From Gulosibacter hominis (GTDB lineage Bacteria > Actinomycetota > Actinomycetes > Actinomycetales > Microbacteriaceae): a stretch of 37,750 bases of DNA. Positions 6,651 to 29,112 of the stretch are shown here, piece after piece. The notes below the pieces were generated by a model that was not told the DNA's origin, did no database searches, and saw only the letters and a list, made by a program, of their open reading frames with translations. Made by a program: the position numbers and the translations under genes. Location of the stretch: the NCBI RefSeq assembly GCF_904842695.1, contig NZ_CAJGWQ010000017.1, positions 1 through 37,750 on the forward strand, written 5' to 3'. The first letter of the stretch is position 1, and each line of letters starts with the position of its first letter.

Positions 6651-7346
6651 ATGACCCAAACGCACCCGCTCATCGGCACAGTTCGCCGAGTGCGTACCGG
6701 CAAAGTCACCACCCAGCAGTGGAGCGGCCGCACCATCAACACCGGCGCCGCCAAAACACCCCGCGACGGGCGCATCCCCGTCAGCGTCCAAGGGCTCGAC
6801 GGCGACGAACAGGGCAACCTCAAAGTACACGGCGGCCCAAACAAAGCCATCTGCTGCTACCCCTACGAATTCCTCGACCAGTGGCGAGCCGACGGCATCG
6901 AACTTCCCGAAGGAGCCCTCTTCGAAAACCTCACCCTCGAAGGGCTCACCGACCAAGAAGTACATCTCGGCGACATCTACCAGCTCGACGATCTGCGCGT
7001 ACAGGTCACCCAGCCGCGCCGACCCTGCGCCACCGTCTCCGCGCGCTGGAGCATGAAAGAACTGCCGCGGCTCATGCAAACAACCAACCGCACCGGTTTT
7101 TACTTTCGCGTGCTCGAACCCGGTACCGTCGCCCAGGGAGACACCCTGCGGCTCATCCAACGCCTCGACAACTCGGTATCAGTCGCTGAAACCAACCGCA
7201 TCATGAACGTCGACCGCGACGATATCGCCGGCATCCACCAACTACTCGCATCCCCCGAACTTCCCGAACGCTGGCGGGGGATGCTCGAACGCCGACTCGA
7301 AGGCAAATACGAAGACGACTCGGCACGACTATTCGGCACCAGCTAA
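6651..7346 (+). CDS. MOSC domain protein, YiiM-like
   Basis: At 231 residues this is a stand-alone MOSC protein. It shows the conserved HGGPNKA (60-66), the GxLFENLT stretch around 89-95, and the hallmark cysteine C126 in RRPC that in this superfamily carries sulfur or binds the molybdenum cofactor. Residues from about 180 match the short helical 3-alpha domain that follows MOSC in YiiM-type proteins. E. coli YiiM helps reduce N-hydroxylated base analogues; a similar sulfur or Mo-dependent detoxification role is inference. No molybdopterin synthesis genes are nearby. ATG 6651 has no visible ribosome binding site and may be translated from a short leader. The end of this gene is duplicated after its stop codon. 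Confidence 0.85.
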   Translation: MTQTHPLIGTVRRVRTGKVTTQQWSGRTINTGAAKTPRDGRIPVSVQGLDGDEQGNLKVHGGPNKAICCYPYEFLDQWRADGIELPEGALFENLTLEGLTDQEVHLGDIYQLDDLRVQVTQPRRPCATVSARWSMKELPRLMQTTNRTGFYFRVLEPGTVAQGDTLRLIQRLDNSVSVAETNRIMNVDRDDIAGIHQLLASPELPERWRGMLERRLEGKYEDDSARLFGTS

Positions 7347-7365
7347 CAGCAACCAGCTAACAGCG
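7338..7365 (+). repeat. 14-bp duplication across the MOSC stop codon
   Basis: ACCAGCTAACAGCA (7338-7351) is followed directly by ACCAGCTAACAGCG (7352-7365). The real TAA is at 7344-7346 and its copy at 7358-7360. The copy is untranslated. Confidence 0.9.
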
Positions 7366-7407
7366 CCAGGGGCTACAAGCGTCAGCGGATGCACGCGCCG
7401 GCGGAGC

Positions 7408-8937
7408 CTACAAACTCCGGCCGATCTCCCACAGCCGGTCGGGGCGGCCATCAATCGCCTCCGACAGCGCAAACGCCTGATCGTCCGAAAGCGACGACAC
7501 ATAGTCGAGCACTCCGCGCCCCACCCCGAACCGGTGCGCCGTCGCCACCGAATCAGGCACCGGAATGCCTTCGGGGCAATCCTCCATCAACTCCAGCTGC
7601 TGTCGAGTCGCCAGCGCCACCAGTTCGCGCAGCCGCGGCGGCACCCGCTCACGATCATGGCGATCATCAAGCCACGAAGTTAACCCGTTCACAATCCGCA
7701 GCAGCACCCGACTCAGCCCACGCTGATACATCGCAATATCGGGGCGGTTCAAAATAAAGTGCCGGTGCACAAACTTGAGCACATTCACCGCATGCCAACC
7801 CGACACATCCAGTGTCACAAGCCCCGTGCGCGGATTGTTCTCGGGCGCCAACACCACCGAATTTTGCAGCTGCCCAATCCAGCGGCTCGTGAACGACGAC
7901 AGCGCCCGCTCGGTGGTGAGCGAACCATCAAAATCCTCCGCCAAAAGGCCATCCACGAGGTCATCCGCAACCAGACGCACCGCGTCAGTGAACGCACCAT
8001 CATCAGCAATCCACGGATCATCGGCGTGCAGCTTCCGGCGCAACAACTCCAGCGCCGCCCCCGGACGCTGCCGCTGACCGCCAAGCTGCTCGCCACTCAA
8101 ATGCCGCAGCGGACACGCATCCTCAAGCCAGGTGCCAAGCTCGCGCGCCACCGCACTCTGGCTCAGCAGCCCGGCCCGATAAAAATCATCAACATCGTGC
8201 ACCGAATAGGCGATGTCATCAGCAATATCCATCACCGTCGCCTCGAGCGACTGCTGCAATGGCAATACCCCAGCTGAACCGGCACGCGCATCCGCAAGGT
8301 CGGCTGCATCCACAAAATAGGCCGAGTACTTCCGCACCACCAGCTCGCCATCAACCCGGCGCAGCCCCGGTGGCAGCACTGCATCGGGGGCATCAACCGT
8401 CACCGCCGCAGTCCACGGATATTTCGCGGTTGCCGAACGAGACGCGGCGGTGAGATTCAGGCCGTGATCGGTGTCGTGCCACACATCCAGGGCCGTAATG
8501 ATGCGATACGTCTGCGCGTTCCCCTCAAACCCATCCGGCAGCCCGAGCGTCTCGCGAGCGACCCGGTCGAGCACCTGCTCACCCAAATGTCCAAACGGGG
8601 GATGGCCAAGATCGTGCGCGGCAGCCGCTGCCTGCGCCACCACAGGATCACAACAAAACTTGGGATTCGTCGAAGCCAGCGGCGCAAGATCGGCAACCAA
8701 CTGGGTCGCGATCGTGCGCGCCACCGCAGTGACCTTCAACGAATGCGTCAGGCGATTGTGCACCAGCGGGCCTGCACCCGTCTGGCCAATCACCTGCGTC
8801 ACCGCCGACAGTCGCGCGTAATACGGCGAAAACCGGATGCGCTCCAGATCGCGTCGAAACTCGGTGTCGCTATCAGCAATTTCGTGACCGCCAACAGCAT
8901 CGGCGAAACGACGAGAGGTGCGGGAATGCGGCTTCAT
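7408..8937 (-). CDS. dgt: Deoxyguanosinetriphosphate triphosphohydrolase (dGTPase)
   Basis: This HD-superfamily enzyme of 509 residues hydrolyses dGTP (and in many family members other dNTPs) to the nucleoside and triphosphate, controlling dNTP pools. The metal site is visible: HNRLTHS (60-66), the HD pair in AAAAHDLGHPPFGH (108-109) and the later MDIADDIAYSVHDVDD segment. FEGNAQTYRII is the nucleotide-pocket motif usual in Dgt. Length matches the long Dgt form. I chose ATG 8937 because GAGG lies 6 bp upstream; TTG 8943 is in frame but less likely. Downstream the gene converges on the MOSC gene with about 60 bp between. Confidence 0.92.
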   Translation of the reverse strand: MKPHSRTSRRFADAVGGHEIADSDTEFRRDLERIRFSPYYARLSAVTQVIGQTGAGPLVHNRLTHSLKVTAVARTIATQLVADLAPLASTNPKFCCDPVVAQAAAAAHDLGHPPFGHLGEQVLDRVARETLGLPDGFEGNAQTYRIITALDVWHDTDHGLNLTAASRSATAKYPWTAAVTVDAPDAVLPPGLRRVDGELVVRKYSAYFVDAADLADARAGSAGVLPLQQSLEATVMDIADDIAYSVHDVDDFYRAGLLSQSAVARELGTWLEDACPLRHLSGEQLGGQRQRPGAALELLRRKLHADDPWIADDGAFTDAVRLVADDLVDGLLAEDFDGSLTTERALSSFTSRWIGQLQNSVVLAPENNPRTGLVTLDVSGWHAVNVLKFVHRHFILNRPDIAMYQRGLSRVLLRIVNGLTSWLDDRHDRERVPPRLRELVALATRQQLELMEDCPEGIPVPDSVATAHRFGVGRGVLDYVSSLSDDQAFALSEAIDGRPDRLWEIGRSL

Positions 8938-9018
8938 GAACAACCTCGGCGATATCGGAAAGCAGCTGCTGCCACACTAGCTTCAGCCCGGAAAGAACTG
9001 GTAGCGCCCCAACCCGAG

Positions 9019-10170
9019 CTACAGCTGCCGCAACCGGGTGGCAGCCTTGTGCAGCACCTCGGGGCGCTTACAGAACGCAAACCGTACGAGCGACTTGGCT
9101 CCGGCCGCATCGCGATAAAACGCCGACAGCGGCACCGCCGCCACCCCGATGCGCTCGGGCAACTCTCGGCACAGCTGCGCGGCATCAGTTACGCCCAGCG
9201 GCGCCGCATCGGCCACCGCGAAATAGCCGCCGTTCACCGGCGCCACCGTAAAACCGGCATCCGCAAGCGCCGGCACCAGCAGATCACGGCCGGATCGCAG
9301 CTGGGCACGAATTGCCGCGAAATCAGCATCCGGCAGCGCCAACCCGACAGCAATTCCCTCCTGCAACGGCCCGGCATTCACATAGGTGAGCCACTGCTTC
9401 ACCGCCATCACCGCCGACACCAGCTCGGCCGAGCCGGTCACCCAGCCAACCTTCCAGCCGGTGGTGGCGAAGGTCTTGCCACCGGAAGAAATCGTGATGG
9501 TGCGATCACGCATCCCCGGCAGCGAAGCCATCGGAATATGCCGATGCTCGTCGAAGGCCAGATGCTCGTACACCTCGTCGGTAATCACGATGAGATCGTG
9601 AGCGATCGCCAGCTCGGCAATCTGCTCCAGCTCGGCGCGCGAAAACACGTGCCCGGTGGGGTTATGGGGCGTGTTCACCAAAATCGCGCGCGTTCTCGGC
9701 GTAATGGCGGATGCGAGCCGGTCACTATCGAGCGCGAAATCGGGCCACTCAAGCCGCACCGGCACCAGGGTGGCCTGCGCGAGCACCGCATCGGCATCGT
9801 AGGCGTCATAGAACGGTTCGAAGGCGATCAGCTCGTCACCGGGTTCGCACAGCGCCAGAATCGCGGCCGCCAGCGCCTCGGTGGCACCGGCGGTGACTAG
9901 CACCTCCGAATCAACATCCCACTCCAGGCCGTACCAGTGGCGCTGGTGTGCGGCGATCGCCCGGCGCAGCTGGGGGATGCCGGGGCCGGGCGGATACTGG
10001 TTGCGGCCCGCCGAAATCGCCTCGATCGCCGCGTCCAGCACCGGCTGCGGGCCGGCCGTATCCGGGAACCCCTGACCTAGATTTACGGCATCGTGCTCGA
10101 CCGCCAACGCCGACATCTCGGCAAAAATCGTCGTACCAAACCGGCGCATCCGGGACACTAGCTCGCTCAT
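9019..10170 (-). CDS. PLP-dependent class I aminotransferase
   Basis: The 383-residue fold-type I aminotransferase has all the expected landmarks: LGQGFPD near residue 31, NQYPPGPG (57-64), HNPTG with N170, TDEVY with D198, and the Schiff-base lysine K232 in SSGGKTF followed by TGWKVGW. The C-terminal VRFAF holds the substrate-carboxylate arginine. The closest families I know are the DapC/YbdL-type enzymes, acting on N-succinyl-diaminopimelate, methionine or kynurenine-like substrates. Substrate cannot be fixed from sequence alone. It stands upstream of dgt on the same strand with about 80 bp between; a shared transcript is possible. Confidence 0.88.
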   Translation of the reverse strand: MSELVSRMRRFGTTIFAEMSALAVEHDAVNLGQGFPDTAGPQPVLDAAIEAISAGRNQYPPGPGIPQLRRAIAAHQRHWYGLEWDVDSEVLVTAGATEALAAAILALCEPGDELIAFEPFYDAYDADAVLAQATLVPVRLEWPDFALDSDRLASAITPRTRAILVNTPHNPTGHVFSRAELEQIAELAIAHDLIVITDEVYEHLAFDEHRHIPMASLPGMRDRTITISSGGKTFATTGWKVGWVTGSAELVSAVMAVKQWLTYVNAGPLQEGIAVGLALPDADFAAIRAQLRSGRDLLVPALADAGFTVAPVNGGYFAVADAAPLGVTDAAQLCRELPERIGVAAVPLSAFYRDAAGAKSLVRFAFCKRPEVLHKAATRLRQL

Positions 10171-10289
10171 GCACTCATGCTACTGACAGGAACACCGGCA
10201 ACCATGCTGAGCGCGTCATGCAAAGTCACTCGACGCTGAACTGACTCACCCAAGCACCTGCTCAACCCAATACCGAACGGAGCCGAACC

Positions 10290-10751
10290 ATGGCCGAACT
10301 CGACGACACCCTCGACCAGCAGATCAACCAGCTGTGCGCTCGCGGTGACGAACTTGCCGAAGAAGAGAAGTTTGCTGAAGCGGTTGCCGAATACGACCGC
10401 GCCTGGGCGCTGCTGCCCGAACCGAAACAGCAGTGGAACGCCGCCACCTGGATTCTCGCGGCGATTGGTGACGCGCACGTGCTGCGCGGCGACTTCGCGG
10501 GCGCGCACAATGCGCTCTCGGCGGCCATGCACTGCCCCGATGCGATCGGGAACCCGTTCATTCACCTGCGGCTGGGACAGGCACAGTTTGAGCTCGGCAA
10601 TCTCGACCGCGCCGCCGACGAGCTGATGCGCGCCTATATGGGTGCCGGGCCGGAAATCTTCGCGATGGAGGACGAAAAATACCTTCAGTTCCTCGCCACC
10701 CGGGCCCAGGGCATCGAATTCCCGGATGCTGCGGAGGTCGACCTCGACTAG
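10290..10751 (+). CDS. Small tetratricopeptide-repeat protein
   Basis: The 153-residue soluble protein is almost entirely helical, with two or three TPR-like helix pairs: GDELAEEEKFAEAVAEYDRA (about 19-38), AIGDAHVLRGDFAGAHNAL (about 57-75) and LGQAQFELGNLDRAADELM. No signal peptide or catalytic motif is visible, so it should act as a protein-binding adaptor. Similar stand-alone TPR proteins occur in polymorphic-toxin immunity loci, but no toxin gene is adjacent, so I make no such claim. It converges on the patatin gene, with the repeat at 10757-10804 between. Confidence 0.7.
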   Translation: MAELDDTLDQQINQLCARGDELAEEEKFAEAVAEYDRAWALLPEPKQQWNAATWILAAIGDAHVLRGDFAGAHNALSAAMHCPDAIGNPFIHLRLGQAQFELGNLDRAADELMRAYMGAGPEIFAMEDEKYLQFLATRAQGIEFPDAAEVDLD

Positions 10752-10756
10752 ACGCT

Positions 10757-10804
10757 CAAGTTACGGGGCGCTCAAGTCACCGGGCCAGCAAGTCACCGGG
10801 CCGG
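10757..10804 (-). repeat. Three 16-bp copies of the patatin gene's 3' end with stop codon
   Basis: Three contiguous 16-bp units lie at 10757-10772, 10773-10788 and 10789-10804. On the minus strand each contains a stop codon at the same place (TAA, TGA, TGA). The rightmost is the true end of the patatin gene; the other two are downstream copies. The last two units differ at a single base. Confidence 0.9.
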
Positions 10805-11701
10805 TAGCACAAGGAACTCGCGCAGCGCCGGCAGCTCGCGCTCGATCTGCGCGCCACCGAGCTCATACATGCGCTGCAGCTTGCGCACATCCGTTTCGGA
10901 ATTCGACACCGTCAACCCCTCGGGGCAAAACAAGTAGGCGCGCCCGCTGCGCTCCAAATCAAACAGCTCGGCACGGGTGCGGTTATAGCGCAGCGGACGC
11001 TTCACCACCGCATCCGCAATTGCCGGATAGCGGCGAAAAATTGCCCGCAGCCCCGCCGACGTGACACTGCCGCCGAGCGGTTTTACATAGTTGCGGGGCC
11101 GCGTGAGCACCACCACAAAGCGTTCGAATCCCGCAGCCTTCGCCGCATCCAGCGCAAACCCACCCGTGGGGCCCAGCGCGCCGTCAAAATACACGTGACC
11201 GTCAATCGTCGCCGGGGGCATCCACACCGGCAGCGTCGACGAAGCACGCACCCGCACCATCAGATCGTGCAAATCGTGCACATCATCGCGGCCCCAGTAC
11301 ACCATCCGGCCCGTGTCGGCCTGCACCGCACCGACTGCAAACTGTGCCGGATGCGCGCGGTACGCATCCCAGTCGTAGGGGAGCGCCTCACCGGGAAGGC
11401 CGGTTTGCTCATAAATATATTCGGCATGAAATCGGCCCTTGCCCTGCATCCAGGTGCGCCAACTGCCAAAGTGAGGATCTGCTGCCAAATCCACAAACGA
11501 TTCGCGTGCCCGGCCAGCATCACGGCTCAAATAGTTTGCGGTGCAGCTCGCGCCGGCAGAAATACCACCCACCCACGGGAAATCAATCCCCTCGGCAATG
11601 AGCCGCGCCACCACCGCCGAAGTAAAGCTGGCGCGCATCCCACCACCCTCAAAAATGAGCGCCGTATTTGCCAGAGCGTCAGAATGCGTCATAGCGAACA
11701 T
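10793..11701 (-). CDS. Patatin-like phospholipase
   Basis: The 302-residue protein carries the patatin Ser-Asp dyad: the oxyanion loop GGGMR (19-23), nucleophile S48 in GISAG (46-50) and D173 in DGALG. It should hydrolyse acyl esters of phospholipids or similar lipids. There is no signal peptide or transmembrane segment, so it probably works in the cytoplasm or at the inner membrane face. The YqhO/RssA-like size and the DxxGRxxYWGxDD segment (about 129-140) fit the bacterial subgroup. The gene starts 15 bp after the amrS stop, on the same strand, so it is very likely the last gene of the AmmeMemoRadiSam operon. ATG 11692 is an alternative start, with no better ribosome binding site. Confidence 0.87.
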   Translation of the reverse strand: MFAMTHSDALANTALIFEGGGMRASFTSAVVARLIAEGIDFPWVGGISAGASCTANYLSRDAGRARESFVDLAADPHFGSWRTWMQGKGRFHAEYIYEQTGLPGEALPYDWDAYRAHPAQFAVGAVQADTGRMVYWGRDDVHDLHDLMVRVRASSTLPVWMPPATIDGHVYFDGALGPTGGFALDAAKAAGFERFVVVLTRPRNYVKPLGGSVTSAGLRAIFRRYPAIADAVVKRPLRYNRTRAELFDLERSGRAYLFCPEGLTVSNSETDVRKLQRMYELGGAQIERELPALREFLVLPAR

Positions 11702-11716
11702 TGTTACAAGACTCGG

Positions 11717-12822
11717 TTACGGTTGCCGGCGACCAACGGGATGGGAACCGCGCCGGGATGCAATCCGCACCGGGATGCGGTGGCCATCAAACGTTCCCAG
11801 CCGCTCGGCAAATCGTCCCGGCACGGCGCGACCGCAGTCCGGGCAGCAGCCGTCGGCCGTCAAACGATATTCGCGCACCCGATGCCAATCACGCACGATC
11901 AGCCCGGCACCGCATCCCGGGCACCAGGTGGTGCCGCCGCGGGCATCATGCACATTGCCGGTGTACACAAAACGCTCACCGGCATCGAGGGCGATCTGAC
12001 GAGCCTTCGAAAGCGTTGCCGGTGGCGTGGGCGGAACATCTTGCATCCGGTGATCGGGATGAAAGGCCGTGAAATGATGCGGCACATCCGGCCCCAGCTC
12101 GGTCACAATCCAATTTGCCATCCGCTTGATTTCGGCATCCGAATCGTTATGGCCGGGAATCAGCAGCGTGGTGATCTCTAACCAGCAATCGGTTTCATGC
12201 CGAATAAAACTCAGCGTATCGAGCACCGTCTGCAACCGGGCACCCGTAATTCGACGATAAAAGTCGTCACTAAAGCCTTTGAGATCGATATTCGCGGCAT
12301 CAACCGCGCCATACAGTTCGGCGCGTGGCTGCGGCGAAATGTACCCCGCACTCACCGCAACCGATTTCACACCGCGCTCGCGGCAGGCGGCAGCAATATC
12401 GATCGCATATTCGGCAAAAATCGTCGGATCGTTATAGGTGAACGCCACCGAATCGCAGCCGGTGCGAAGCGCTGCCTGCGCGATAGCGTCGGGCGTGGCC
12501 CGATCGGCGAGGTGGTCGATCTCGCGCGAAGTCGAAATATCCCAGTTCTGGCAAAATTTGCAGCCGAGATTACAGCCGGCGGTGCCAAAACTCAGCACCG
12601 AGGTGCCCGGATAAAAATGATTCAGCGGCTTTTTTCAATCGGATCGATACAAAACCCGCTTGAGCGGCCATAGGTATCGAGCACGATCTGCTCGCCATCG
12701 CGCATCCGCACAAAACAAAAACCGCGCTGACCATCGCGCAATTTGCACTCGCGAGGGCACAGATCACACTGCAGGCGGCCATCATCAACCGCATGCCACC
12801 AGCGGGCCGCTACTCGCTCCAC
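11717..12822 (-). pseudogene. amrS: AmmeMemoRadiSam radical SAM enzyme, split by a 1-base frameshift
   Basis: The first part (12822 to about 12622) encodes RWW, then CDLCPREC and RGFCFVR, ending at IDPIEK. A TGA follows three codons later. The rest continues in another frame as PLNHFYPGTSVLSFG and the radical-SAM cluster motif CNLGCKFC (Cx3Cx2C), down to a C-terminal region with two further CxxC pairs. Adding one A to the run of six As (plus-strand Ts 12630-12635) restores the family sequence exactly across the join. Radical SAM chemistry needs the 4Fe-4S cluster encoded in the second part. The gene starts at GTG 12822, overlapping amrA by 13 bp. It is either a recent natural mutation, a phase-variable tract or a homopolymer sequencing error. 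The A-run is not in the frame required for dnaX-type slippage. Confidence 0.88.
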
Positions 12823-14203: not shown

Positions 14204-14285
14204 ACGACCAGAATGGCACCCGTGGCTGAGCGGCCGCGCAATGCCCTCACGCTGCGGCATAATGGGAGGGCTGAAAGGAGTCGAG

Positions 14286-14906: not shown

Positions 14907-14956
14907 CGCGCAGCTCGATTGAGCGTGCTTAATAAACCGGTGCTTGTGGGGGGGCG

Positions 14957-15017
14957 GTGCCTAATAGACCGGTGCCTAATAGACCGGTGCTAATGGGTTG
15001 CCGGTGCGTGATAGACC
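14957..15017 (+). repeat. 15-bp intergenic tandem repeat
   Basis: GGTGCCTAATAGACC occurs twice in exact tandem (14957-14971 and 14972-14986), then as decayed copies at 14987-15002 and 15003-15017; a partial copy precedes at about 14927. Each exact unit contains TAATAG. The rest of the 284-bp gap holds no gene that I can support. Confidence 0.85.
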
Positions 15018-15146
15018 GATGCGGGCAAAAATAACCACACGGAGAAATGAATGCGGTTTGTAAATAGGCCGTTAGAGCGAAATTCGCGCGTTGATTTCGA
15101 ATTGTTGGTCAAATCGGCGTATTGTGCTGCCCGATTCACTATTGGC

Positions 15147-15170: not shown

Positions 15171-15190
15171 CGTAGTCGGGAGAAACCTCT

Positions 15191-16768
15191 ATGTCTACTG
15201 CACCAGCATCCACCGCGCGTCGCGGCGGCCTTGCCGGATACCTTGACCGGCGCAATATCATCGCCCCAATGGGGTATAACCGGTGGCTCATCCCACCCGC
15301 AGCCCTCGCGGTACACCTCAGCATCGGCCAGGTTTACGCAACCAGCGTGTATAAAACCTCGCTCGCCGCACACTTCGGGGTGGGGCTCACCGAAATTGGT
15401 GTGATCTTCTCGATCGCCATCGTCATGCTCGGCGTCTCGGCGGCAGTGCTCGGCACCTGGGTCGACCGTAACGGCCCCCGTAAAGCCATGTTTTTTTCGA
15501 TGTGCTTCTGGGTGACGGGCTTCCTCATCGGCGCACTCGGCATCGCCACGCAACAGCTGTGGCTGCTCTATTTTGGCTACGGGTTTATCGGCGGTATCGG
15601 TCTCGGGATCGGCTACATTTCACCGGTCTCGACCCTCATTAAGTGGTTCCCCGACCGGCCGGGCCTGGCAACCGGCCTCGCCATCATGGGATTCGGTGGC
15701 GGTGCGATGGTGGCGAGCCCCATCTCACGCCAGCTCATGAGCCTCTACGACCCGGCCTTCGACCCCAGCGATAAAGCCGCGGTGGTCAGCGGTTCGGCGG
15801 TGGCGCTGCTTTTTGTCACCCTCGCTGCCATCTACCTGGTGCTGATGCTCATCGGTGTCGCCAACATCCGTCTGCCGCACCCCGACTGGAAACCCGACGG
15901 CTGGACACCCGCGCCCGCCAAGAGCAACTCGATGATTACCGACAAATCGGTGTCGGCGAAAAACGCCATCCGCACCCCGCAATTCTGGCTGCTGTGGATC
16001 GTGCTGTTCACCAACATCACCGCCGGTATCGGCATCCTCGAGCAGGCCAGCCCCATGATCCAAGACTTCTTCCGCCAGCCCGATGGCACCTCGACCGTGG
16101 CCGCGGCAGCCGCCGCCGGTTTTGTGGGGCTGCTGTCGCTGTTCAACATGGCGGGCCGGTTCGTGTGGTCGTCAACCTCAGACAAGATCGGCCGTAAGCC
16201 GATCTACATGATCTATCTCGGTGTCGGGATGCTGATGTTCGCCGGCCTGGCGCTGCTCGGTCACACTTCGGTGGCACTGTTCGTGCTGTTCGCGGTGATT
16301 GCGCTGTCGTTCTACGGCGGCGGCTTTGCCACCATCCCCGCCTACTTGCGTGACATGTTTGGCACCTACCAGGTGGGCGCCATCCACGGCCGCCTGCTCA
16401 CCGCCTGGTCGGCTGCCGGTGTGGCCGGGCCGCTGATCGTCAACGCGGTGCTCGACGCGCAGGGTAAGCCCGGCGAACTCGATGCCGGCGCCTACCGGGT
16501 TGCGCTGTTCATCATGATCGGTGTGCTCGCCGTCGGTTTTATCGCCAACCTGCTAGTGCGCGCGGTCGACTCACGCTTCCACGAACCCGAAGATGTCGTT
16601 AAGGCGCACCTCGACGAACTCAACGGCCGCAGCGAAATTGACCAGGTTGGTGACAAATCACTGCCGGGTGCCGGTCGCCTCGTGTTCTCGTGGCTGATCG
16701 TCAGCGGCATCCTCGCCTATGGTGTGATCCTCACCGCCATCACCGCGGCGCAGCTGTTCATCCACTAA
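15191..16768 (+). CDS. OFA-family major facilitator transporter
   Basis: The 525-residue protein has 12 predicted membrane helices and an N-terminal cytoplasmic extension of about 30 residues. The MFS loop 2-3 motif is present as DRNGPRKA, and a second copy, SDKIGRKP, lies in the symmetric loop. The pattern WLIPPAALAVHLSIGQVYATSVY and the later FGGGAMVASPI are typical of the oxalate/formate antiporter family. Members move oxalate/formate, lactate or other monocarboxylates; the substrate here is unknown, and no oxalate-degrading gene is nearby. GGGAGAAA about 6 bp upstream supports ATG 15191. It appears to be a single-gene unit with its own strong terminator. Confidence 0.88.
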   Translation: MSTAPASTARRGGLAGYLDRRNIIAPMGYNRWLIPPAALAVHLSIGQVYATSVYKTSLAAHFGVGLTEIGVIFSIAIVMLGVSAAVLGTWVDRNGPRKAMFFSMCFWVTGFLIGALGIATQQLWLLYFGYGFIGGIGLGIGYISPVSTLIKWFPDRPGLATGLAIMGFGGGAMVASPISRQLMSLYDPAFDPSDKAAVVSGSAVALLFVTLAAIYLVLMLIGVANIRLPHPDWKPDGWTPAPAKSNSMITDKSVSAKNAIRTPQFWLLWIVLFTNITAGIGILEQASPMIQDFFRQPDGTSTVAAAAAAGFVGLLSLFNMAGRFVWSSTSDKIGRKPIYMIYLGVGMLMFAGLALLGHTSVALFVLFAVIALSFYGGGFATIPAYLRDMFGTYQVGAIHGRLLTAWSAAGVAGPLIVNAVLDAQGKPGELDAGAYRVALFIMIGVLAVGFIANLLVRAVDSRFHEPEDVVKAHLDELNGRSEIDQVGDKSLPGAGRLVFSWLIVSGILAYGVILTAITAAQLFIH

Positions 16769-16834: not shown

Positions 16835-16836
16835 CA

Positions 16837-17012
16837 ATGGAAGAACGAGCGAGAATGGAAGAGCGAGCATGGCTGCACGGGCGCGGATGCACGAGAGCGG
16901 ATGCGCGGGTGCGGATGTACTGGACCGAAGTGCGGGCGCGGATGTACTGGCCCGGGCGAACGAGCCCGGCCCACTACCAACTGGCCCGGCCCACTACCAG
17001 CCGGCCAGACTA
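16837..17012 (-). repeat. Mosaic of decayed short tandem repeats, including copies of the hrpB gene end
   Basis: On the plus strand, CCACTACCAACTGGCCCGGC (16971-16990) and a diverged 20-bp copy (16991-17010) abut the hrpB stop (CTA, 17010-17012), with GGCC-rich ends that match the gene's own last bases. GCGGATGTACTGG occurs at 16911-16923 and 16938-16950, and ATGGAAGA-CGAGCGAGA type units run from 16837 to about 16873. No gene is supported here. Confidence 0.75.
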
Positions 17013-19538
17013 CCGGCCCGACTTTTTTGTGCCCCGCTGCGGTGGCGCCGTCAATGGATCTTCGGGCCAGGGATGCTTGCTATAGCGGCCGCGCAGCTCG
17101 GCCCGCACCTGCGGATACCCCTGCTGCCAAAACGACGCGAGATCCTCGGTGATCGCCACCGGACGCTGCGCCGGTGACAACAACTGCATCACCAGCGGCG
17201 CCCTGCCCCCAACCAGCCGAGGTGTGTCGAGCATCCCGAAACACTCCTGCAGCTTCACCGAACAGCGCGCCGGCGCATCCGCATCGCCCGCGTCGGGATA
17301 TTCGATGTGGATTTTTGAGCCGGTGGGCACCTGCAAATATTCCGGCACTAAATCGGCGAGCCCGGCCGCCTCGGGCCAGGGCAGCAGCCGCTGCAGTGCC
17401 GGCACCAGATCGAGCGAGCGCAGCGAGGCGCCGTCAGCGACCCGCGCAAACTCGGGGCCGAGCCAGTCCGCATCCAGCTCGCGCAGCACCGCATCCGAAA
17501 CATCCGGCCACGGCGCACCCAAATAGCGATGCACAAACGCCAAGCGGTTGCGCAATTGCCGGGCAGCCTCCGACCAGTGCAGCAGCTGCGGGCCCCGCCG
17601 CGCAAACTCATCACGCACACACGCCAGCACCTGATCGGGTGTGGGCGACACCGCCGTTTCGGCAAGCGTGATCGCGCCGAGCCGCTCATATTTGCGGGCG
17701 GTCACGCGGGCATCAACGAGCGCGGTTTCAGTGACGGTCGTGTGCATCGAGGCGGCCACCTCAAGCGCGAGCTGCCTGGTGATGGGCACCGCGGCGCGAA
17801 TCTGCGCACCCGAACCATCCACGGCATGACCGCGAGCCACATCGGTGGCCACCAGCCACTGCTGACCCATCAGCGCGGACTCACGGTGCAGCTGCGCGCC
17901 GGTGCCGCCGGCAAACAGATACGAACCATCGCCGCCGCGGGCGCAGGCGATGCGTTCGGGATGCGCGGCCGCCGCCACGAACGCCAGCGCCTGCTCTGCC
18001 GAGAGGTCAGTCGCTTCCGCGGTACTCGTGACACCACCGAGCAGCCGCTGCAGGCGGTCGCGTTCGCGGCGCCACTGGCGGGCGGCCGGATCATCACCGT
18101 TTCGCAGCTGCTGATGAAGCGCCGCGAGATCACCGCGCGGTGCGCGCTGGGTTGATTGCAGGGTGGCAACACATCCGGCGGCCGCAGCCGGTCCGATGCG
18201 CGGCGCGGCATCGATGAGCGCGCGGGCGAGGCGAGGATGCGTCGGGAAACGAGCAAGCTGTTCGCCGCGGTCGGTAATCGTCACCGTGCCGTCAGCGGCA
18301 ATCGCGACCGCATCCAGCAGCTGCAGCGTCTGCTGCGCTCGGCGCAGGGCATCGGGCGCGGGATGGTCGGGGAGCGCAAGATCGCGCGCAAACGGATCAC
18401 CCCACAGCGCCAGCAGCAGCGCCGTTTCGGTGAGATCGACGGTGGCGATTTCGGGTTTGCGCGCGGCCGCAAAACTGGCCCACTGTGCCTCACTCACGCA
18501 GCGATACACGTCACCCGGCCCCACCCGCGCGGCACGTCCGGCACGCTGCCGACCCGAATCCTGCGATACCGATACGGTCACGAGTCCCGAGATGCCGCGG
18601 GCAAGATCAAGTCGCGGTTCACGCGCAAGGCACGAGTCGACCACGATGCGAATATCGGGGACCGTGAGTGACGATTCGGCAACCGCGGTGGCGACAACCG
18701 CGCGCGGTGCACCGTCTGGTGCGGGCCGCAGTGCCGCATCCTGTTCGGCGGCCGAGAGCGAACCGGTGAGCGAGATCGCCTCGACTCCGTCGGCACGCAA
18801 ACATGTCACCACCCGCTCGACCTCGCGGTGGCCGGGCAAAAACACCAGCGCCGAATGTTCGGGATGCACGGCCATCGCTTCGCGCGTGGTTGCGGCAACA
18901 TGGTCGAGAAACTCGCGGCGCACACCGCGTTCATCCAGCCGGTGGCCGGCGAACGGCATCCAGTGTTCGGTGAGCGGATGCAGTTCCATCGGCACCGAAA
19001 GCACGGGTGCATTGCCGAGCAGTGTCGCCCACTGTGCCGCGTCGAGGGTTGCCGACATCGCCACCACGGCGAGATCGTCACGCAGCTGCGCAATTTGCTG
19101 ACTGAACGCGAACGCGAGGTCGGCATCGATGCTGCGCTCGTGCACCTCGTCGAGCACTACGGCCGACACCCCGGGAAGGTCGGGGCTGTGCAGCAGCCGC
19201 CGCACGAGCACACCGGCGGTTACGAATTCGACGCGCGTGTGCCGCGACACTTTGCTGTCGTCTCGCACCGTGTAGCCCACCAAATCGCCCAGGGCCGTGC
19301 CGGTGAGGGATGCGAGACGCCTCGCCGCGGCCCGCGCCGCCACTCGGCGGGGCTGGGCGACAACCACGCGGCCGGTGCTGAGGTTGGCGAGCACCGGCGG
19401 CACCACCGTGGTTTTACCCGAGCCCGGGGGAGAGGTGATCACTGCCGCGCGATGTTCGGTGATCGCCGAACGCAGCGGCGCCGCTAGCGCGAGCGCCGGT
19501 AGGTCGCGGCCGATGGCATCGACGTCAAAACTGGTCAA
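17010..19538 (-). CDS. hrpB: ATP-dependent helicase HrpB (DEAH/RHA type)
   Basis: The product has 842 residues from TTG 19538, a normal HrpB length. Superfamily 2 motifs are complete: Walker A PGSGKT (about 38-43), AQPRR (motif Ia), DEVH (about 130-133, motif II), SAT (motif III), ATAVAESSLTVPDI (motif V) and QRAGRAAR (motif VI). A helicase-associated region and the HrpB-specific C-terminal domain follow, with KIHIEYPD and a GYPQVRAELRGRYSKHPWPEDP end. E. coli HrpB has no clear phenotype; an RNA helicase role is the usual assumption. The start is uncertain: TTG 19538 has GAGGA upstream, while the open frame extends to TTG 19577. It is downstream of sbcC with 105 bp between. Confidence 0.92.
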   Translation of the reverse strand: MTSFDVDAIGRDLPALALAAPLRSAITEHRAAVITSPPGSGKTTVVPPVLANLSTGRVVVAQPRRVAARAAARRLASLTGTALGDLVGYTVRDDSKVSRHTRVEFVTAGVLVRRLLHSPDLPGVSAVVLDEVHERSIDADLAFAFSQQIAQLRDDLAVVAMSATLDAAQWATLLGNAPVLSVPMELHPLTEHWMPFAGHRLDERGVRREFLDHVAATTREAMAVHPEHSALVFLPGHREVERVVTCLRADGVEAISLTGSLSAAEQDAALRPAPDGAPRAVVATAVAESSLTVPDIRIVVDSCLAREPRLDLARGISGLVTVSVSQDSGRQRAGRAARVGPGDVYRCVSEAQWASFAAARKPEIATVDLTETALLLALWGDPFARDLALPDHPAPDALRRAQQTLQLLDAVAIAADGTVTITDRGEQLARFPTHPRLARALIDAAPRIGPAAAAGCVATLQSTQRAPRGDLAALHQQLRNGDDPAARQWRRERDRLQRLLGGVTSTAEATDLSAEQALAFVAAAAHPERIACARGGDGSYLFAGGTGAQLHRESALMGQQWLVATDVARGHAVDGSGAQIRAAVPITRQLALEVAASMHTTVTETALVDARVTARKYERLGAITLAETAVSPTPDQVLACVRDEFARRGPQLLHWSEAARQLRNRLAFVHRYLGAPWPDVSDAVLRELDADWLGPEFARVADGASLRSLDLVPALQRLLPWPEAAGLADLVPEYLQVPTGSKIHIEYPDAGDADAPARCSVKLQECFGMLDTPRLVGGRAPLVMQLLSPAQRPVAITEDLASFWQQGYPQVRAELRGRYSKHPWPEDPLTAPPQRGTKKSGR

Positions 19539-23932: not shown

Positions 23933-23958
23933 ATCGCAACCGTAGCGCGAGCCTCCGA

Positions 23959-24798
23959 CTATTCTTCGGTCACAAAATCAATCAGCTCTTCAACACGGCC
24001 AATTACCGCCGGCTCAAGATCGTGCCAATTGCGCACCTGACCAAGGATGTGCTGCCACGCGCGAGCAATATCAGCCTGGTCTTCGTGCGGCCAGCCAAGG
24101 GCCGCACAAATACCGTGTTTCCACGACTGCCCGCGCGGGATAACCGGCCACTCGTTCAAACCGAGCCGCTCGGGGCGAAGTGCCTGCCACACATCCACAT
24201 AGGGATGCCCGACAACTCGCACCGCATCGGTGCCGAACCGCTGCATGATGTGCGCCGCGATCCGCGACTCTTTTGAACCGTGTACCAGGTGATCAAGCAG
24301 CACCCCGGCCCGGCGATGTCGCGACGGCTGGAATTCGCGCAGCACCTCCTCGAGATGATCGGCACCCTCGAGATAGATGACCGCCACACCCTCGACGCGG
24401 AGGTCGTGGCCCCACACCTTTTCGACGAGTTCGGCATCGTGGCGCCCCTCGACGAAGATGCGCCCGGCCCGCGCCACCCGCGCCGGTGCATCCTTGACAT
24501 ACACCGAACCAGAAGCGCTGCGGGCGGGAGCGGTCGGCTGCGGGCGGGTGAAGTCGAGCTGCACGGCGTTGCCGTCGTCGTCCAAAAAAATCGTGTCGCG
24601 CGGAAACCGGCGGGCGGCGCCGTCGGCATCGCGCAGCTCTACCTGGTTGCGGTCGGCGCGCACGAGCTCGCCATAGAACTCGGTGACGGTGTCTTCGAGC
24701 CAAAGCCCACGTCGTGCCGGCAACTTTTGTGGCTCGCGTGGCACCCGTGCCGCACGCATGCGAGCGACCGGGTCGTCGTCGTACCGATCATCGAACAT
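23959..24798 (-). CDS. DUF3097 family protein
   Basis: The 279-residue cytoplasmic protein matches the actinobacterial DUF3097 family as I know it: a small beta domain (residues about 30-80), then a central region with GRIFVEGRHDAELVEKVWGHDLR that resembles a Toprim-type acidic fold, DHLVHGSKESRIA, and GHPYVDVWQAL, ending in a helical domain. Acidic and His residues (EGRHD, DHLVHGSKE) could bind a metal; this suggests nucleic-acid chemistry but is not shown. The position directly before sbcDC hints at a role in DNA end processing. That is a neighbourhood argument only. Confidence 0.8.
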   Translation of the reverse strand: MFDDRYDDDPVARMRAARVPREPQKLPARRGLWLEDTVTEFYGELVRADRNQVELRDADGAARRFPRDTIFLDDDGNAVQLDFTRPQPTAPARSASGSVYVKDAPARVARAGRIFVEGRHDAELVEKVWGHDLRVEGVAVIYLEGADHLEEVLREFQPSRHRRAGVLLDHLVHGSKESRIAAHIMQRFGTDAVRVVGHPYVDVWQALRPERLGLNEWPVIPRGQSWKHGICAALGWPHEDQADIARAWQHILGQVRNWHDLEPAVIGRVEELIDFVTEE

Positions 24799-24884
24799 AG
24801 GGCGAGCGTAAGGTGGGCGAGCAGGTTTGTTGCAGCGCAGCGCCGAGAAGAGCCTGAAAACCTCCCCGGTACCGGGCAGATCAT

Positions 24885-24937
24885 CAGTTTTTGGATGCGC
24901 CGCTTGCGATAAACTGGATGCTCACATTTAGCAGGAG
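24885..24937 (+). promoter_or_regulatory. Probable promoter and ribosome binding site of garA-ftsR
   Basis: TAAACT at 24910-24915 is a fair -10 box; AGTTTT at 24886-24891 is an 18-bp-spaced but poor -35. AGGAGG at 24932-24937 is the ribosome binding site. A 12-bp palindrome (24865-24876) lies just upstream and could be regulatory. Confidence 0.4.
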
Positions 24938-24943
24938 GAACGA

Positions 24944-25456
24944 ATGGCAACCATGGATGGTCGCGGCGAGGGGCTGCTCCCAGACGCCCCGGACAACGCG
25001 CAGGCGTCTGCAGCGGCGGATCATTCGTCAACCATGTCATTTACCGGCGACTTCAGTGCGCAGCTCGCGGCGCTCATCGCCGGCGGTGTTTCAAAAGAAG
25101 AGATGGACTCGATCAGCGCTCTGCCCTCGGGATCGGCGCTGCTCATTGTTCGTCGCGGGAACAACATCGGTGCCCGCTACCTGCTTGACACCGATCTGCA
25201 AATCGCCGGCCGTCACCCCAATGCTGAAATCTTCCTCGACGATGTGACCGTGTCGCGTCGTCACGCCGAGTTCACCCGGCAGGGCACAACGTTCCAGCTG
25301 CGCGATCTCGGCTCGCTGAACGGCACCTACTACAACGGCGAGCGCATCAACCAGGTTGCGCTCTCGAACGGTAGCGAGGTGCAGATCGGCAAGTACCGGC
25401 TGACTTTCTACGCTTCGCCGATCGACGTCAACACCCCGGCCGCGCCCGAGCTATGA
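24944..25456 (+). CDS. garA: GarA/OdhI-like FHA domain protein
   Basis: The 170-residue protein ends in a full FHA domain with R90 in GRHP, S104 and H107 in VSRRHAEF and N126 in SLNGTY, the residues that read phospho-threonine. The pSALLIVRRG start and DVTVSRRHAEF core are those of GarA/OdhI, which inhibits 2-oxoglutarate dehydrogenase and adjusts glutamate metabolism until phosphorylated by PknB/PknG near its N-terminus. The usual ETTSVFRAD phosphorylation motif is replaced at 28-37 by SSTMSFTGDF, keeping one Thr. AGGAGG lies 7 bp before ATG 24944, the best ribosome binding site in the window. Its stop overlaps the start of ftsR. Confidence 0.9.
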   Translation: MATMDGRGEGLLPDAPDNAQASAAADHSSTMSFTGDFSAQLAALIAGGVSKEEMDSISALPSGSALLIVRRGNNIGARYLLDTDLQIAGRHPNAEIFLDDVTVSRRHAEFTRQGTTFQLRDLGSLNGTYYNGERINQVALSNGSEVQIGKYRLTFYASPIDVNTPAAPEL

Positions 25457-26154
25457 GTGGCAGCAGCGCCGCCCGCCGGACGCGTCCGGCAGCTTCGCTT
25501 TCGATTGGGCAAGTGCAGCTCAGATTGGGAGCGGAATTCCCCGACCTCACGCCCTCAAAGCTGCGGTTTCTTGAGGAGCAGGGGCTGCTGAATCCCGACC
25601 GCACGCCGGCTGGCTATCGCAAGTTCACCGAGCGTGATGTCGAACGGGTGCGCACAATCCTGCAGCTGCAGCGCGACCACTATTTGCCGCTGCGCGTTAT
25701 CGGGGAGTATCTCGAGGCGCTCGACCGTGGTGAACAGCCGAAGCTTCCCGGAGCAGAAGCTGCCGCACCATCCCGAAGCATCCTGCTGGGAGACGAACTG
25801 GTGTCGCGCCACCAACTGTTGACCCAGTCGGGAGCCAGCCGCGAGCTGCTCGATCAGGCGCTGCAGGCGCAGCTGCTGCCGCGGCAGCAGCACTACACAC
25901 AGGCCCACGTGCAGCTTTTGGCGACGCTGGTGCTGCTTGAACGGCGGGGGATTGAGCCGCGTCACCTGCGGGCTTTCCGCAACTCGGTGCAGCACGAACT
26001 CGGGCTGATCGAGCAGGTGGTCTCATCGCTGGGACGTCGTAACGACGCTGCCTCGCGAAAGCGCGCTGAGGCGGTGGCAACCGAGGTTGCCGAACAGCTG
26101 GCGTGTGTGCGTCGTGGGCTCATCCAGCAGGGAGTTGCCGACTCTGGCCTCTAG
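25453..26154 (+). CDS. ftsR: MerR-family regulator FtsR
   Basis: The 233-residue protein begins with a winged-helix MerR DNA-binding domain at about 17-85 (LSIGQVQLRL, KLRFLEEQGLL, GYRKFTERDVERVRTI) and has a helical C-terminal half. Order next to garA/odhI and the PSKLRFLEEQGLL signature match Corynebacterium FtsR (next to odhI) and mycobacterial Rv1828. FtsR activates ftsZ in C. glutamicum; that target is inferred here. The ATG overlaps the garA TGA by 4 bp, so the two are co-translated. The gene end is repeated behind the stop. Confidence 0.88.
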   Translation: MSGSSAARRTRPAASLSIGQVQLRLGAEFPDLTPSKLRFLEEQGLLNPDRTPAGYRKFTERDVERVRTILQLQRDHYLPLRVIGEYLEALDRGEQPKLPGAEAAAPSRSILLGDELVSRHQLLTQSGASRELLDQALQAQLLPRQQHYTQAHVQLLATLVLLERRGIEPRHLRAFRNSVQHELGLIEQVVSSLGRRNDAASRKRAEAVATEVAEQLACVRRGLIQQGVADSGL

Positions 26155-26191
26155 TGGGCTGGCTCTCTAGTGAGTTGGCCTCTCGTTGATT
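26146..26191 (+). repeat. 15-16-bp copies across the ftsR stop codon
   Basis: GGCCTCTAGTGGGCT (26146-26160, containing the real TAG) is followed by GGCTCTCTAGTGAGTT (26161-26176) and GGCCTCTCGTTGATT (26177-26191). The second copy keeps the TAG; the third still has a TGA. Confidence 0.85.
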
Positions 26192-26240
26192 GGCGCCGCG
26201 GCGTTGCGACAGCGGCCTCGGTAACAATCGGATTACGGTC

Positions 26241-26255
26241 TCAAGTATTGCTTGA
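26241..26255 (+). promoter_or_regulatory. Dyad TCAAG-N5-CTTGA in the ftsR-merR gap
   Basis: A perfect 5-bp inverted repeat spaced by TATTG lies 87 bp after ftsR. It could be an operator for either MerR protein. The 284-bp gap (26155-26438) holds no gene that I can support. Confidence 0.35.
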
Positions 26256-26299
26256 AGCTTGCGGCGCGTCGCCGCTGAAGTGAACAGAATGCTGAAACC

Positions 26300-26315
26300 A
26301 TCACACCGATGTGAT
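26300..26315 (+). promoter_or_regulatory. Dyad ATCACA-N4-TGTGAT upstream of merR
   Basis: A perfect 6-bp inverted repeat sits 124 bp before the second merR gene. The half-sites face opposite to the CRP/GlxR consensus, so it is not a classical CRP site. A role as a binding site for the downstream MerR protein is inference. Confidence 0.4.
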
Positions 26316-26438
26316 TTTGCTCCTCGAAGTTGGCGGTGGCGTCACCTACACTGAGAATCGGGCGAGTCGCACTCGTGTGTGCCGAATCGGCGCATCCACA
26401 ACTCACCCACACCACACGTCGCGTAGAAAGGTGGCAAC

Positions 26439-26987
26439 ATGAGCGCACGTGAGCACGCTCCCAACACGGAGTCGCGCGCTGAACTGCTGTTCACCGATGG
26501 CCTTCCCGATCTCGACCCCAATATCGGCTACCGCGGCGCTGTGGCCGCACGAGTGGCCGGCATCACTTACCGTCAGCTCGACTACTGGGCTCGCACCGAA
26601 CTGGTCGAACCCTCGATCCAAACCGCCGCGGGCTCAGGCTCGCAGCGTCTGTACTCATTCCGCGACATCCTGGTACTGCGCCTGGTGAAGCGCCTGCTCG
26701 AAACCGGTATTTCACTGCAGCAGATCCGGGTCGCGGTCGAGCAGCTGCATGAAGCTGGCATTAACGACCTCGCTCAGATCACGCTGCTTTCAGACGGCGC
26801 GAGCGTCTACCTGTGCACCAAAGAAGACGAAATCATCGACCTCGTGCGTCGCGGGCAGGGCGTATTCGGCATCTTCCTCGGCCAGGTTGTGCGCGAGGTT
26901 GAAGACAACCTCGTCGATGTCGACAGCGACGAGCTGCATCCGCACGATGAACTTGCCGCGCGCCGCCGTAAGCACCGCGCCAGCTAG
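26439..26987 (+). CDS. MerR-family regulator, Rv1830/ResR-like
   Basis: The 182-residue protein has the MerR helix-turn-helix beginning at GYRGAVAARVAGITYRQLDYW (about 28-48), with RLYSFRDILVLRLVKRLLETGIS as the wing and linker. The C-terminal part (LLSDGASVYLC, GQGVFGIFLGQVVREVE) is that of the mycobacterial Rv1830 group, linked there to cell growth and division timing. AAAGG (26426-26430) precedes ATG 26439. In mycobacteria and corynebacteria a DUF151 nuclease gene lies between the ftsR and this gene; here it is missing. Confidence 0.88.
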   Translation: MSAREHAPNTESRAELLFTDGLPDLDPNIGYRGAVAARVAGITYRQLDYWARTELVEPSIQTAAGSGSQRLYSFRDILVLRLVKRLLETGISLQQIRVAVEQLHEAGINDLAQITLLSDGASVYLCTKEDEIIDLVRRGQGVFGIFLGQVVREVEDNLVDVDSDELHPHDELAARRRKHRAS

Positions 26988-26992
26988 TCGCA

Positions 26993-28420
26993 TTGGAAGC
27001 ATCCTCGACAGCCAGCGAAACCGCCGGCGAAAACGAATTTGACCTCATCATCATCGGTGCGGGGTCGGGGAACACCATTCCCGATGAACGATTTGCCGAT
27101 CTAAAAATCGCCATCATCGACGATGGCGAACACTTTGGTGGCACCTGCCTCAACGTCGGCTGCATCCCCACCAAGATGTTTGTGCGCCCCGCAGAAATTG
27201 TTCACGGAGCACGCAGCGCGCAGCATCTCGGCGTCACCGCGCCCGATGTGCGCGCCAACTGGGCGGCGGTACGCGACCGCATCTTCACGCGCATCGACGC
27301 AATATCCAACTCGGGTGAGGAATATCGGCGCAGCGGCGAACCAAACATTCAGCTCGTCCGAGAACGCGTGCGGTTTGTTTCCGACCACGAACTCGAAACC
27401 GACTCGGGACGCCGGCTGCGAGCCGAACGCATCATCATCGCGGCCGGGTCGCGCAGCGTCGAACTCGACCCGCTCCCGTGGTCGCAGCGGGTGATTACCA
27501 ACGCCGAGGCTCTGCGCCTCGAACAGCTGCCGCAGCACATCACGGTGATCGGCGGCGGCGCAATCGGCTGTGAATTTGCGAATATTTTCCACGGCTTCGG
27601 AGCCAAAACAGTGCAGTTGGTGCGCTCGATGCCGCTGAAATCGGTCGACAGCGAAGTGGCGGCCACGTTCGCGCAGGTGGCCGATTGGGACCTGCACACC
27701 GGCACCGAAGTGACCGCCGCGCACGAAACCGAAGCCGGCGTCGAATTGACGCTGAGCGACGGCTCGCAAATGATTACCGACCTCGTGCTGGTGGCAGCCG
27801 GCCGCATCCCCAATAGCGACCGTCTCGAGGCGACCGCCGCCGGATTCGACCTGCACGAGGATGGCCGCATCGTCGTGGATGACTACCAGCGGGTGCTTCG
27901 CGATGGCGAACCGGTGCCCGGAGTGTGGGCGCTCGGCGATATCAGCTCACCGCACCAGCTCAAACACGTCGCCAACGAAGAGGCACGAGTGGTTGCGCAC
28001 AATGTCGCCGCCGAGCTCAGCGGTGAAAAGCTGCGCCGCAATACGCTCGGGCCGGTGCCGACAGCGGTGTTTTCGAACCCCGAAGTCGCCTCAATTGGCG
28101 AATCATTGTCGCAGGCGCTGGCGCGCGGCGCGGATGCATTCGCGGTGCGGCACGACTACGGCGCCACCGCCTGGGGATGGGCACTCGAAGACGAAACGAG
28201 TTTTTGTAAGCTCGTCGTCGACCGCGAAAATGGCAAGCTGCTCGGCGCACAGATCATCGGCCCCGATGCGGCGATTTTGCTGCAGCCGCTCATCCAAGCC
28301 GCAAGTCAGGGGCAGAACGTGCGTGGGCTGGCACGGCAACAGTATTGGCCGCATCCGGCAGCCACCGAAATTATTGAAAACGCCCTGCTGCGCGCCGAAG
28401 CACAACTGGCCGCTCACTGA
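26993..28420 (+). CDS. mtr: Mycothione reductase
   Basis: This 475-residue flavoenzyme of the glutathione-reductase family shows the FAD loop GAGSGNTIPDERF, special to mycothione reductases, and the redox pair C52/C57 in GGTCLNVGCIPTK. The NADPH loop GGGAIGCEFA and the C-terminal catalytic H454 and E459 in HPAATE are present. It reduces mycothione (oxidised mycothiol) using NADPH, keeping the main actinobacterial thiol reduced. The only start consistent with the frame is TTG 26993, 5 bp after the merR stop and without a ribosome binding site, giving an N-terminus about 12 residues longer than usual. Translation may depend on coupling to merR. Confidence 0.93.
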   Translation: MEASSTASETAGENEFDLIIIGAGSGNTIPDERFADLKIAIIDDGEHFGGTCLNVGCIPTKMFVRPAEIVHGARSAQHLGVTAPDVRANWAAVRDRIFTRIDAISNSGEEYRRSGEPNIQLVRERVRFVSDHELETDSGRRLRAERIIIAAGSRSVELDPLPWSQRVITNAEALRLEQLPQHITVIGGGAIGCEFANIFHGFGAKTVQLVRSMPLKSVDSEVAATFAQVADWDLHTGTEVTAAHETEAGVELTLSDGSQMITDLVLVAAGRIPNSDRLEATAAGFDLHEDGRIVVDDYQRVLRDGEPVPGVWALGDISSPHQLKHVANEEARVVAHNVAAELSGEKLRRNTLGPVPTAVFSNPEVASIGESLSQALARGADAFAVRHDYGATAWGWALEDETSFCKLVVDRENGKLLGAQIIGPDAAILLQPLIQAASQGQNVRGLARQQYWPHPAATEIIENALLRAEAQLAAH

Positions 28421-28427
28421 GCCGCGC

Positions 28428-28467
28428 GCCGCACAACCCAGCGAAAGGCCGCACAACCCAGTGAAAG
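28428..28467 (+). repeat. 20-bp tandem duplication carrying the def ribosome binding site
   Basis: GCCGCACAACCCAGCGAAAG (28428-28447) and GCCGCACAACCCAGTGAAAG (28448-28467) differ at one base. Each ends in GAAAGG with the next base, a Shine-Dalgarno-like element; only the second is at a proper distance (about 5 bp) from the GTG start of def. Confidence 0.9.
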
Positions 28468-28473
28468 GAAAAC

Positions 28474-28965
28474 GTGACCGTTCGGCAAATTCGCCACTAC
28501 GGCGATCCGGTACTGCGCACCCCCGCCGACCCGATTGGCGAAATCACCGATCAGGTGCGGGCACTCATCCAAGACCTACTCGACACCACCGATATGGACG
28601 GGCGGGCGGGAGTTGCCGCACCTCAAATCGGTGTTGGACTGCGCGCATTCAGCTGGCATATCGACGGCAAACTCGGTTACATCATCAACCCCGAAATCGT
28701 CGAGCTCGGGGGAGAGCCCAGCGAAATTGACGAGGGTTGCCTGTCGGTTCCGGGACTGTGGTTTCCCACTCGGCGCTATCCCTACGCAAAAGTGCGCGGT
28801 ATCGACCTCGACGGTAACGAGGTCGTGCTCGAGGGTGAAGGGCTGATGGCGCAGATGCTGCAACACGAGTGCGACCACCTCGACGGCACCGTGTACGTCG
28901 ACACGCTGGCAAAAGAGCACCGCCGCGAAGCGCTGCGACAGATCCGCGCCGCCGACTGGTTCTAG
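28474..28965 (+). CDS. def: Peptide deformylase
   Basis: At 163 residues it has the three deformylase motifs: GVAAPQIG (46-53), EGCLSVPG with metal ligand C89, and QHECDHLDG with H131, H135 and catalytic E132. The enzyme removes the formyl group from new N-terminal methionines at the ribosome exit. GTG 28474 follows GAAAGG. The C-terminal residues ADWF are the template of repeats found behind the stop codon. It is 53 bp behind mtr, probably co-transcribed. Confidence 0.95.
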
Positions 28966-29112
28966 CAGCGAAGCGCCGGGACTGGTTCTGGCGGCGAAGC
29001 GCGGGGATTGGTTCTAGCGGCGATGCGGTTCTGGCGGCGAAGCGCCGGGCACGGCGCTTCGCTCACCAGCAATCCCAGCTCACCAACAATTACAGCCCAC
29101 CAACAAGGTTGG
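28966..29112 (+). repeat. Compound minisatellite behind def: 26-bp and 17-bp units and a hairpin
   Basis: Four units begin at 28966, 28992, 29018 (9 bp shorter) and 29035; the full ones are 26 bp and end in (G)GACTGGTTCTRG, the same bases that end def (GACTGGTTCTAG). The last unit runs into a perfect 10-bp hairpin (29037-29046 with 29053-29062). Directly after comes a second array of three 17-bp units (29062-29078, 29079-29095, 29096-29112; CTCACCAACAATTACAG type). No gene is supported here. Confidence 0.85.
29037..29062 (+). terminator. Hairpin, possible terminator of mtr-def
   Basis: GCGAAGCGCC and GGCGCTTCGC pair perfectly around a 6-nt loop. No U-tract follows, so intrinsic termination is uncertain, but it lies between convergent genes. 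Confidence 0.45.

Follow-up and report, generated by a model that had tools for sequence, protein, structure and literature searches.

Tandem arrays at the locus

The window, meaning the whole stretch of 37,750 nucleotides analysed here, is a complete contig (C17:1-37750) of the Gulosibacter hominis genome (G000; 2.34 Mb in 33 contigs; 61.9% GC in its first 788 kb). Our own gene finder predicts 28 genes in it, and protein matches were obtained for FtsR, def and a prenyl synthase. The FtsR is 55% identical to that of [Zimmermannella] faecalis, the closer of two loci from named genomes; both of these loci are distant and were left out of the spacer comparisons. A gene for a Rib-domain protein at the contig edge (window 1-806) contains an in-gene repeat with a unit of 321 bp, and the gene next to it has a 12-bp coding repeat, GAGCCGACGCCG, at 4951-5125. 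Repeats in the window were checked by direct reading of the sequence, by TRF and with a detector of lagged self-matches, which scores +1 for a match and -2 for a mismatch over lags of 8-60 bp and has a score threshold of 11.

An earlier note on this DNA had described tandem copies of the gene end, stop codon included, at five genes. Three of these are clear stop-spanning arrays, each found by reading, TRF and the detector. At the end of the MOSC gene (6690-7346), a plus-strand duplication at 7338-7364 (unit 14 bp, 1.9 copies) spans the stop at 7344-7346 in a convergent spacer of 61 bp. The patatin array at 10753-10802 (unstranded, unit 16 bp, 3.1 copies) contains the minus-strand stop of that gene (10793-10795), fills nearly the whole of a 41-bp convergent spacer and starts one base past the stop (10749-10751) of the opposing TPR-protein gene. 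The def array at 28954-29027 (plus strand, unit 26 bp, 2.8 copies) includes the def stop at 28963-28965. Behind it lies an unstranded hairpin at 29037-29062 with a perfect 11-bp stem, the left arm of which resembles the array units; it has no T run, and the terminator scan does not list it.

The other two cases are weak or lie beside the stop. The convergent spacer between an MFS gene (15191-16768) and hrpB (17010-19538, minus strand) is filled in large part by four unstranded arrays at 16836-17006 (d = 18, 14, 27 and 20; TRF and detector), none of which takes in a stop at score 11. The array with the 20-bp unit (16964-17006) falls immediately past the hrpB stop at 17010-17012, which is crossed only by two weak TRF rows (16986-17018, score 45; 17001-17023, score 39). 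At ftsR, a degenerate plus-strand array at 26144-26183 (unit about 16 bp, 2.6 copies) lies at the stop (26152-26154); it was reported by TRF only, with a score of 57, and its detector score of 9 is under the threshold of 11. A possible weaker case at the idsA end comes down to about five shared bases, which do not support a tandem repeat.

The earlier list was confined to repeats associated with stops, and the detector finds six more intergenic arrays in the window that lie off any stop. Three belong to the MFS/hrpB spacer (16836-16868, 16874-16917 and 16905-16954). The remainder, all unstranded, are an array in a divergent spacer (14955-14990, unit 15 bp, 2.4 copies), a duplication in a co-directional spacer (28428-28468, unit 20 bp, 2 copies) and an array in the def convergent spacer (29061-29106, unit 17 bp, 2.7 copies).

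Distribution of arrays in the genome

We sampled 1.60 of the 2.34 Mb, with 1285 predicted genes. Gene coordinates are our own gene-finder calls, and the spacer counts keep RNA genes in; with these unmasked, one counted spacer contains a tRNA. Rfam finds three tRNAs in the window plus three 20-kb stretches, none of them in the window. With the window held out, arrays cover 11.0% of the intergenic DNA in convergent spacers, 3.2% in co-directional and 1.7% in divergent ones (77, 66 and 17 arrays, respectively). For the first 826 kb, window included, the corresponding values are 7.7, 2.3 and 1.0%, while three dinucleotide shuffles of this DNA give 0-0.27, 0.11-0.22 and 0-0.25%. Thus, the arrays as such exceed chance; their association with stops, as described below, does not. 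With 2.97 arrays per kb of spacer, the window is denser than any other of the 23 segments tabulated in the first sample, and was therefore a favourable place for spotting arrays.

The preference for convergent spacers persists at stricter scores. With the score raised to 13, 16 and 20, convergent, co-directional and divergent spacers retain 51/46/9, 33/36/4 and 15/20/2 arrays, and convergent spacers are the densest per kb each time. It persists as well when only private arrays are considered, that is, those whose unit is confined to its own locus and has no distant match: 40, 31 and 9 such arrays occur outside the window in 30.9, 99.0 and 48.5 kb of convergent, co-directional and divergent spacer. 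In the zone 20-80 bp past the stop, private arrays are found in 20 of 128 convergent against 7 of 220 co-directional cases (p=5e-5). For spacers of at least 200 bp the figures are 12/76 and 5/125 (p=0.007), and for those of at least 300 bp 8/60 and 4/81 (p=0.12). The absence of promoters may be insufficient, taken alone, to account for this excess.

Arrays and stop codons

We considered whether stops are covered by arrays more often than the DNA around them. In spacers of at least 120 bp outside the window, arrays include the stop itself in 5 of 348 cases, the points 10, 20 and 30 bp past it in 10, 16 and 26, and those at +40, +50 and +60 in 27 each; stop coverage is lower than that of the +30 point (Fisher p 1.4e-4). 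Over spacers of at least 100 bp, window included, coverage stays level at about 5-6% between +20 and +500 past the stop and is lowest around starts. The ten bases directly behind the stop have 2.9%, and the last 100 coding bases 1.6-2.7%.

The number of stop-spanning arrays was compared with a model in which each array is placed at random, in spacers of all lengths, and may reach into a gene end by up to one unit. Outside the window, 14 of 79 convergent arrays span a stop (14.9 expected), as do 9 of 73 co-directional ones (13.3 expected). Private arrays give 11 observed and 9.3 expected in convergent spacers, and 8 and 10.3 in co-directional spacers. In the window itself, three of eight convergent arrays span a stop (2.5 expected) and no co-directional array does so (0.55 expected).

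The earlier note had proposed a scan of gene ends against the sequence downstream, and had held that its idea would fall if stops showed no excess over other intergenic positions. We aligned the last 30 coding bases with the next 120, where the note had suggested 150, for spacers of at least 180 bp and with the window excluded, and set pseudo-stops 45 bp downstream. Out of 231 each, four stops, 12 pseudo-stops, three in-gene points and one shuffled sequence reach a score of at least 10; for convergent spacers only, the counts are 1, 8, 2 and 1 of 86 each. Stops thus show no excess over matched intergenic points, and the scan lends no support to a process or function bound to gene ends and their stops. 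In this genome stop codons are copied incidentally, as short duplications arise between genes in general, and their copying is no property of gene ends as such.

Dispersed repeat families

The units had been taken to belong to no dispersed repeat family, which is right for most of the window and not for the genome. Eight of the ten window arrays have no distant match at E of 0.05 or less, and the number of such matches is 0-2 for each array, unlike a MIRU- or REP-like family. Genome-wide, about half of the intergenic arrays (82 of 170) match distant loci and partly represent dispersed families; part of these matches is due to chance, as shuffled copies match in 32 of 170 cases.

Several dispersed motifs were noticed along the way. 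An element with a 19-bp unit (core AAATGACCCTGTTA) often has its units in the order minus, minus, plus, plus, forming a palindrome. Copies lie at C5:125683-126256, C10:3935-4315 (L160), C13:17139-17204, C2:72260-72326, C1:414979-415108 and elsewhere in the genome, and the folding energy of one is -51.7 kcal/mol (z -8.4). We counted 11 exact copies of the core in this genome and, for the exact pattern, none in 19 relatives; of 64 matches to a looser motif, convergent spacers contain 35 and contig edges 13. A second dispersed family has copies of GTTTCCTG spaced 21 or 31 bp apart, and neither this family nor the 19-bp-unit family is present in the window. Its pattern TTTGTTTCCTGRCTGCA occurs in direct runs at a spacing of about 31 bp, and inverted copies lie close by (C1:58255-58458, C1:376763-376939, C6:105938-106160, C7:35261-35495, C16:11393-11572 and others); with 43 exact matches here and none in 19 relatives for the exact patterns, it may be a miniature element particular to the species. 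A third motif, GACGCGAACCCACA, has 14 matches in nine clusters (C3:42556-42606 and eight more), 13 of them between predicted genes and in one case 19 bp apart. No match to Y1_Tnp (RAYT-type), looked for as a partner of the dispersed elements, was found in this genome.

Comparison with relatives

At def, the terminal residues DWF and the stop are kept in all ten congeners, and none of the ten has an array made of the def gene end; in one congener (L076) a lag-58 match at the def end scores 10, under the threshold of 11. By eye, several congeners (L074-L076) have a hairpin directly behind the def stop. At the ftsR stop no array was found in 18 relatives, at a threshold where our own genome also shows none.

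Two relatives share the excess in convergent spacers: G003 has 1.83 arrays per kb in convergent spacers against 0.70 in co-directional and 0.13 in divergent ones, and G016 has 2.09 against 0.45 and 0.24. It is partial in G025 (1.85 against 1.10 and 0.99) and rests on three arrays and one array in G008 and G020. The congener G007 (200 kb of C1) has 0.26 arrays per kb in convergent spacers, 0.24 in co-directional and 0.79 in divergent ones; here divergent spacers lead, with 11 arrays in 13.9 kb, the reverse of our genome. In 200 kb of E. coli K-12 we found one intergenic array and none in 3.7 kb of convergent spacer. We made 20 comparisons of orthologous convergent spacers, which have little power (nine distinct spacers of our genome, three relatives). 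Arrays on both sides occur in none of them; three have arrays in our genome only (all the def spacer), two in the relative only and 15 in neither.

Origin of the duplications

The arrays very probably arose as local short tandem duplications, made by microhomology-primed slippage and filtered by selection, with no preference for stops. Microhomology-primed slippage during replication would duplicate short stretches at many places, and selection would remove those duplications that break reading frames, starts or promoters. The remainder would persist and decay in weakly constrained spacers, most densely between convergent genes. Where a unit begins inside the last codons, the stop would be copied too and the first copy would leave the protein intact; stop-spanning duplications would be tolerated for this reason. 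What we infer in this explanation is that slippage occurs and that selection filters its products.

Two sets of measurements bear on those parts. In genes, 350 of 397 lags are divisible by three, compared with 17 of 85 in convergent, 25 of 67 in co-directional and 8 of 18 in divergent spacers, as selection on the reading frame predicts; some in-gene arrays stem from codon structure itself, as genes with shuffled codons are still covered to 0.27-0.34% against 1.2% observed (826-kb subset). A set of 18 private arrays with two near-perfect copies, picked for low decay and allowed up to 2.6 copies so that partial third copies are possible, has on average 3.06 bp of microhomology at the junctions, against 0.96 bp in 2859 simulated duplications passed through the same detector, and none of 10000 resamples reaches the observed mean. 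Such short direct repeats at the break points are as expected for slippage. End joining was considered and rejected as a source. No match to Ku was found in our genome (within the genus, a single genome out of 11 has a match), which makes end-joining fill-in unlikely. There is likewise no match to MutS in our genome; mismatch repair is not known to act on loops of such length, so we draw no conclusion from this absence.

It could still be supposed that gene 3' ends are targeted, either because the stop region is a hot spot for duplication or because extra stops or 3' structure are selected. Three clear arrays in the window do span stops, and two of the 28 window stops reach the gene-end score of 10, compared with 20 of 1252 in the rest of the sample, a count over all spacer lengths made without a pseudo-stop control. 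Yet stop coverage is about five times below that of points 30-60 bp downstream, stops are spanned no more often than random tolerated placement would have it and score below pseudo-stops, the def array is absent from all ten congeners, and the copied stops are mostly out of frame, since lags between genes are mostly not multiples of three. This account is already refuted by the standard that the earlier note had set for it, and we give it almost no weight. Scarcely more credible for the window, and already disfavoured there, is the idea that the arrays are what remains of dispersed repeat families, mobile or palindromic, in fragments. Distant matches exceed those of shuffled copies genome-wide, and families with 19-bp and 21/31-bp spacing recur, but the two window arrays with distant matches have only two and one short ones, and the family motifs tested are absent from the window except for GGATGCAGGG, which occurs once, inside a gene.

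Less remote, although we still consider it unlikely, is that replication stalls at terminator hairpins or where transcription converges and that slippage results, which would make convergent spacers a mutational hot spot. The excess of convergent over co-directional arrays at equal distance from the stop is in its favour, as is the hairpin behind the def array with its unit-like left arm. However, 46 private convergent arrays overlap one hairpin arm just as often as randomly placed ones (0.15 and 0.15) and whole hairpins less often, at 0.07 against 0.16 for random placement in the same spacer, so that we rejected an association of private arrays with hairpins beyond random placement. G007 also shows no convergent excess, the 3.7 kb of convergent spacer in E. 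coli K-12 contain no array, and weaker constraint could explain the excess. A related and similarly doubtful proposal is that the zone where convergent transcription meets is a hot spot of microhomology duplication in this species and some relatives, and that convergent spacers grow thereby; the def spacer, of 177 bp here against 38, 33 and 19 bp in three congeners by gene calls, can be cited as an example.

Slippage followed by selection thus remains our preferred reading. The earlier note had left the choice between a neutral trace of a genome-wide tendency to short duplication and a role at gene ends. For this genome the choice falls on the former: arrays occur across the intergenic DNA and span stops at the rate of random placement, so that general intergenic duplication, an ordinary drift of non-coding DNA, is at work. 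No special cause has to be sought for "duplicated gene ends" seen by eye, since the protein is spared when a unit extends into the last codons. The convergent-spacer excess is a further testable part of the finding.

Relation to known repeats

Bacterial minisatellite or VNTR loci consist of head-to-tail units of tens of bp and are often intergenic. Our arrays are likewise head-to-tail and intergenic, and differ in having mostly few and degenerate copies. The MIRU of mycobacteria form a dispersed family of intergenic tandem units near stops; the position is similar, while locus-private units, as in most of the window arrays, set ours apart. In a partial literature search we found no description of enrichment in convergent spacers or of stop-spanning duplications.

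The closest likeness is to close direct repeats. In a survey of prokaryotes, two copies of a 10-mer within 50 nt were mostly over-represented between genes and weakly under-represented within them, and its Table 2 gives Actinobacteria a high score (3.00) for clustered 8-mers (PMC4060949). The word "convergent" is absent from the main text of that paper, and gene ends are untreated in the passages drawn on here; the intergenic excess of close copies that these passages describe is what we see in our own genome. The arrays described here are new examples of these known intergenic close direct repeats.
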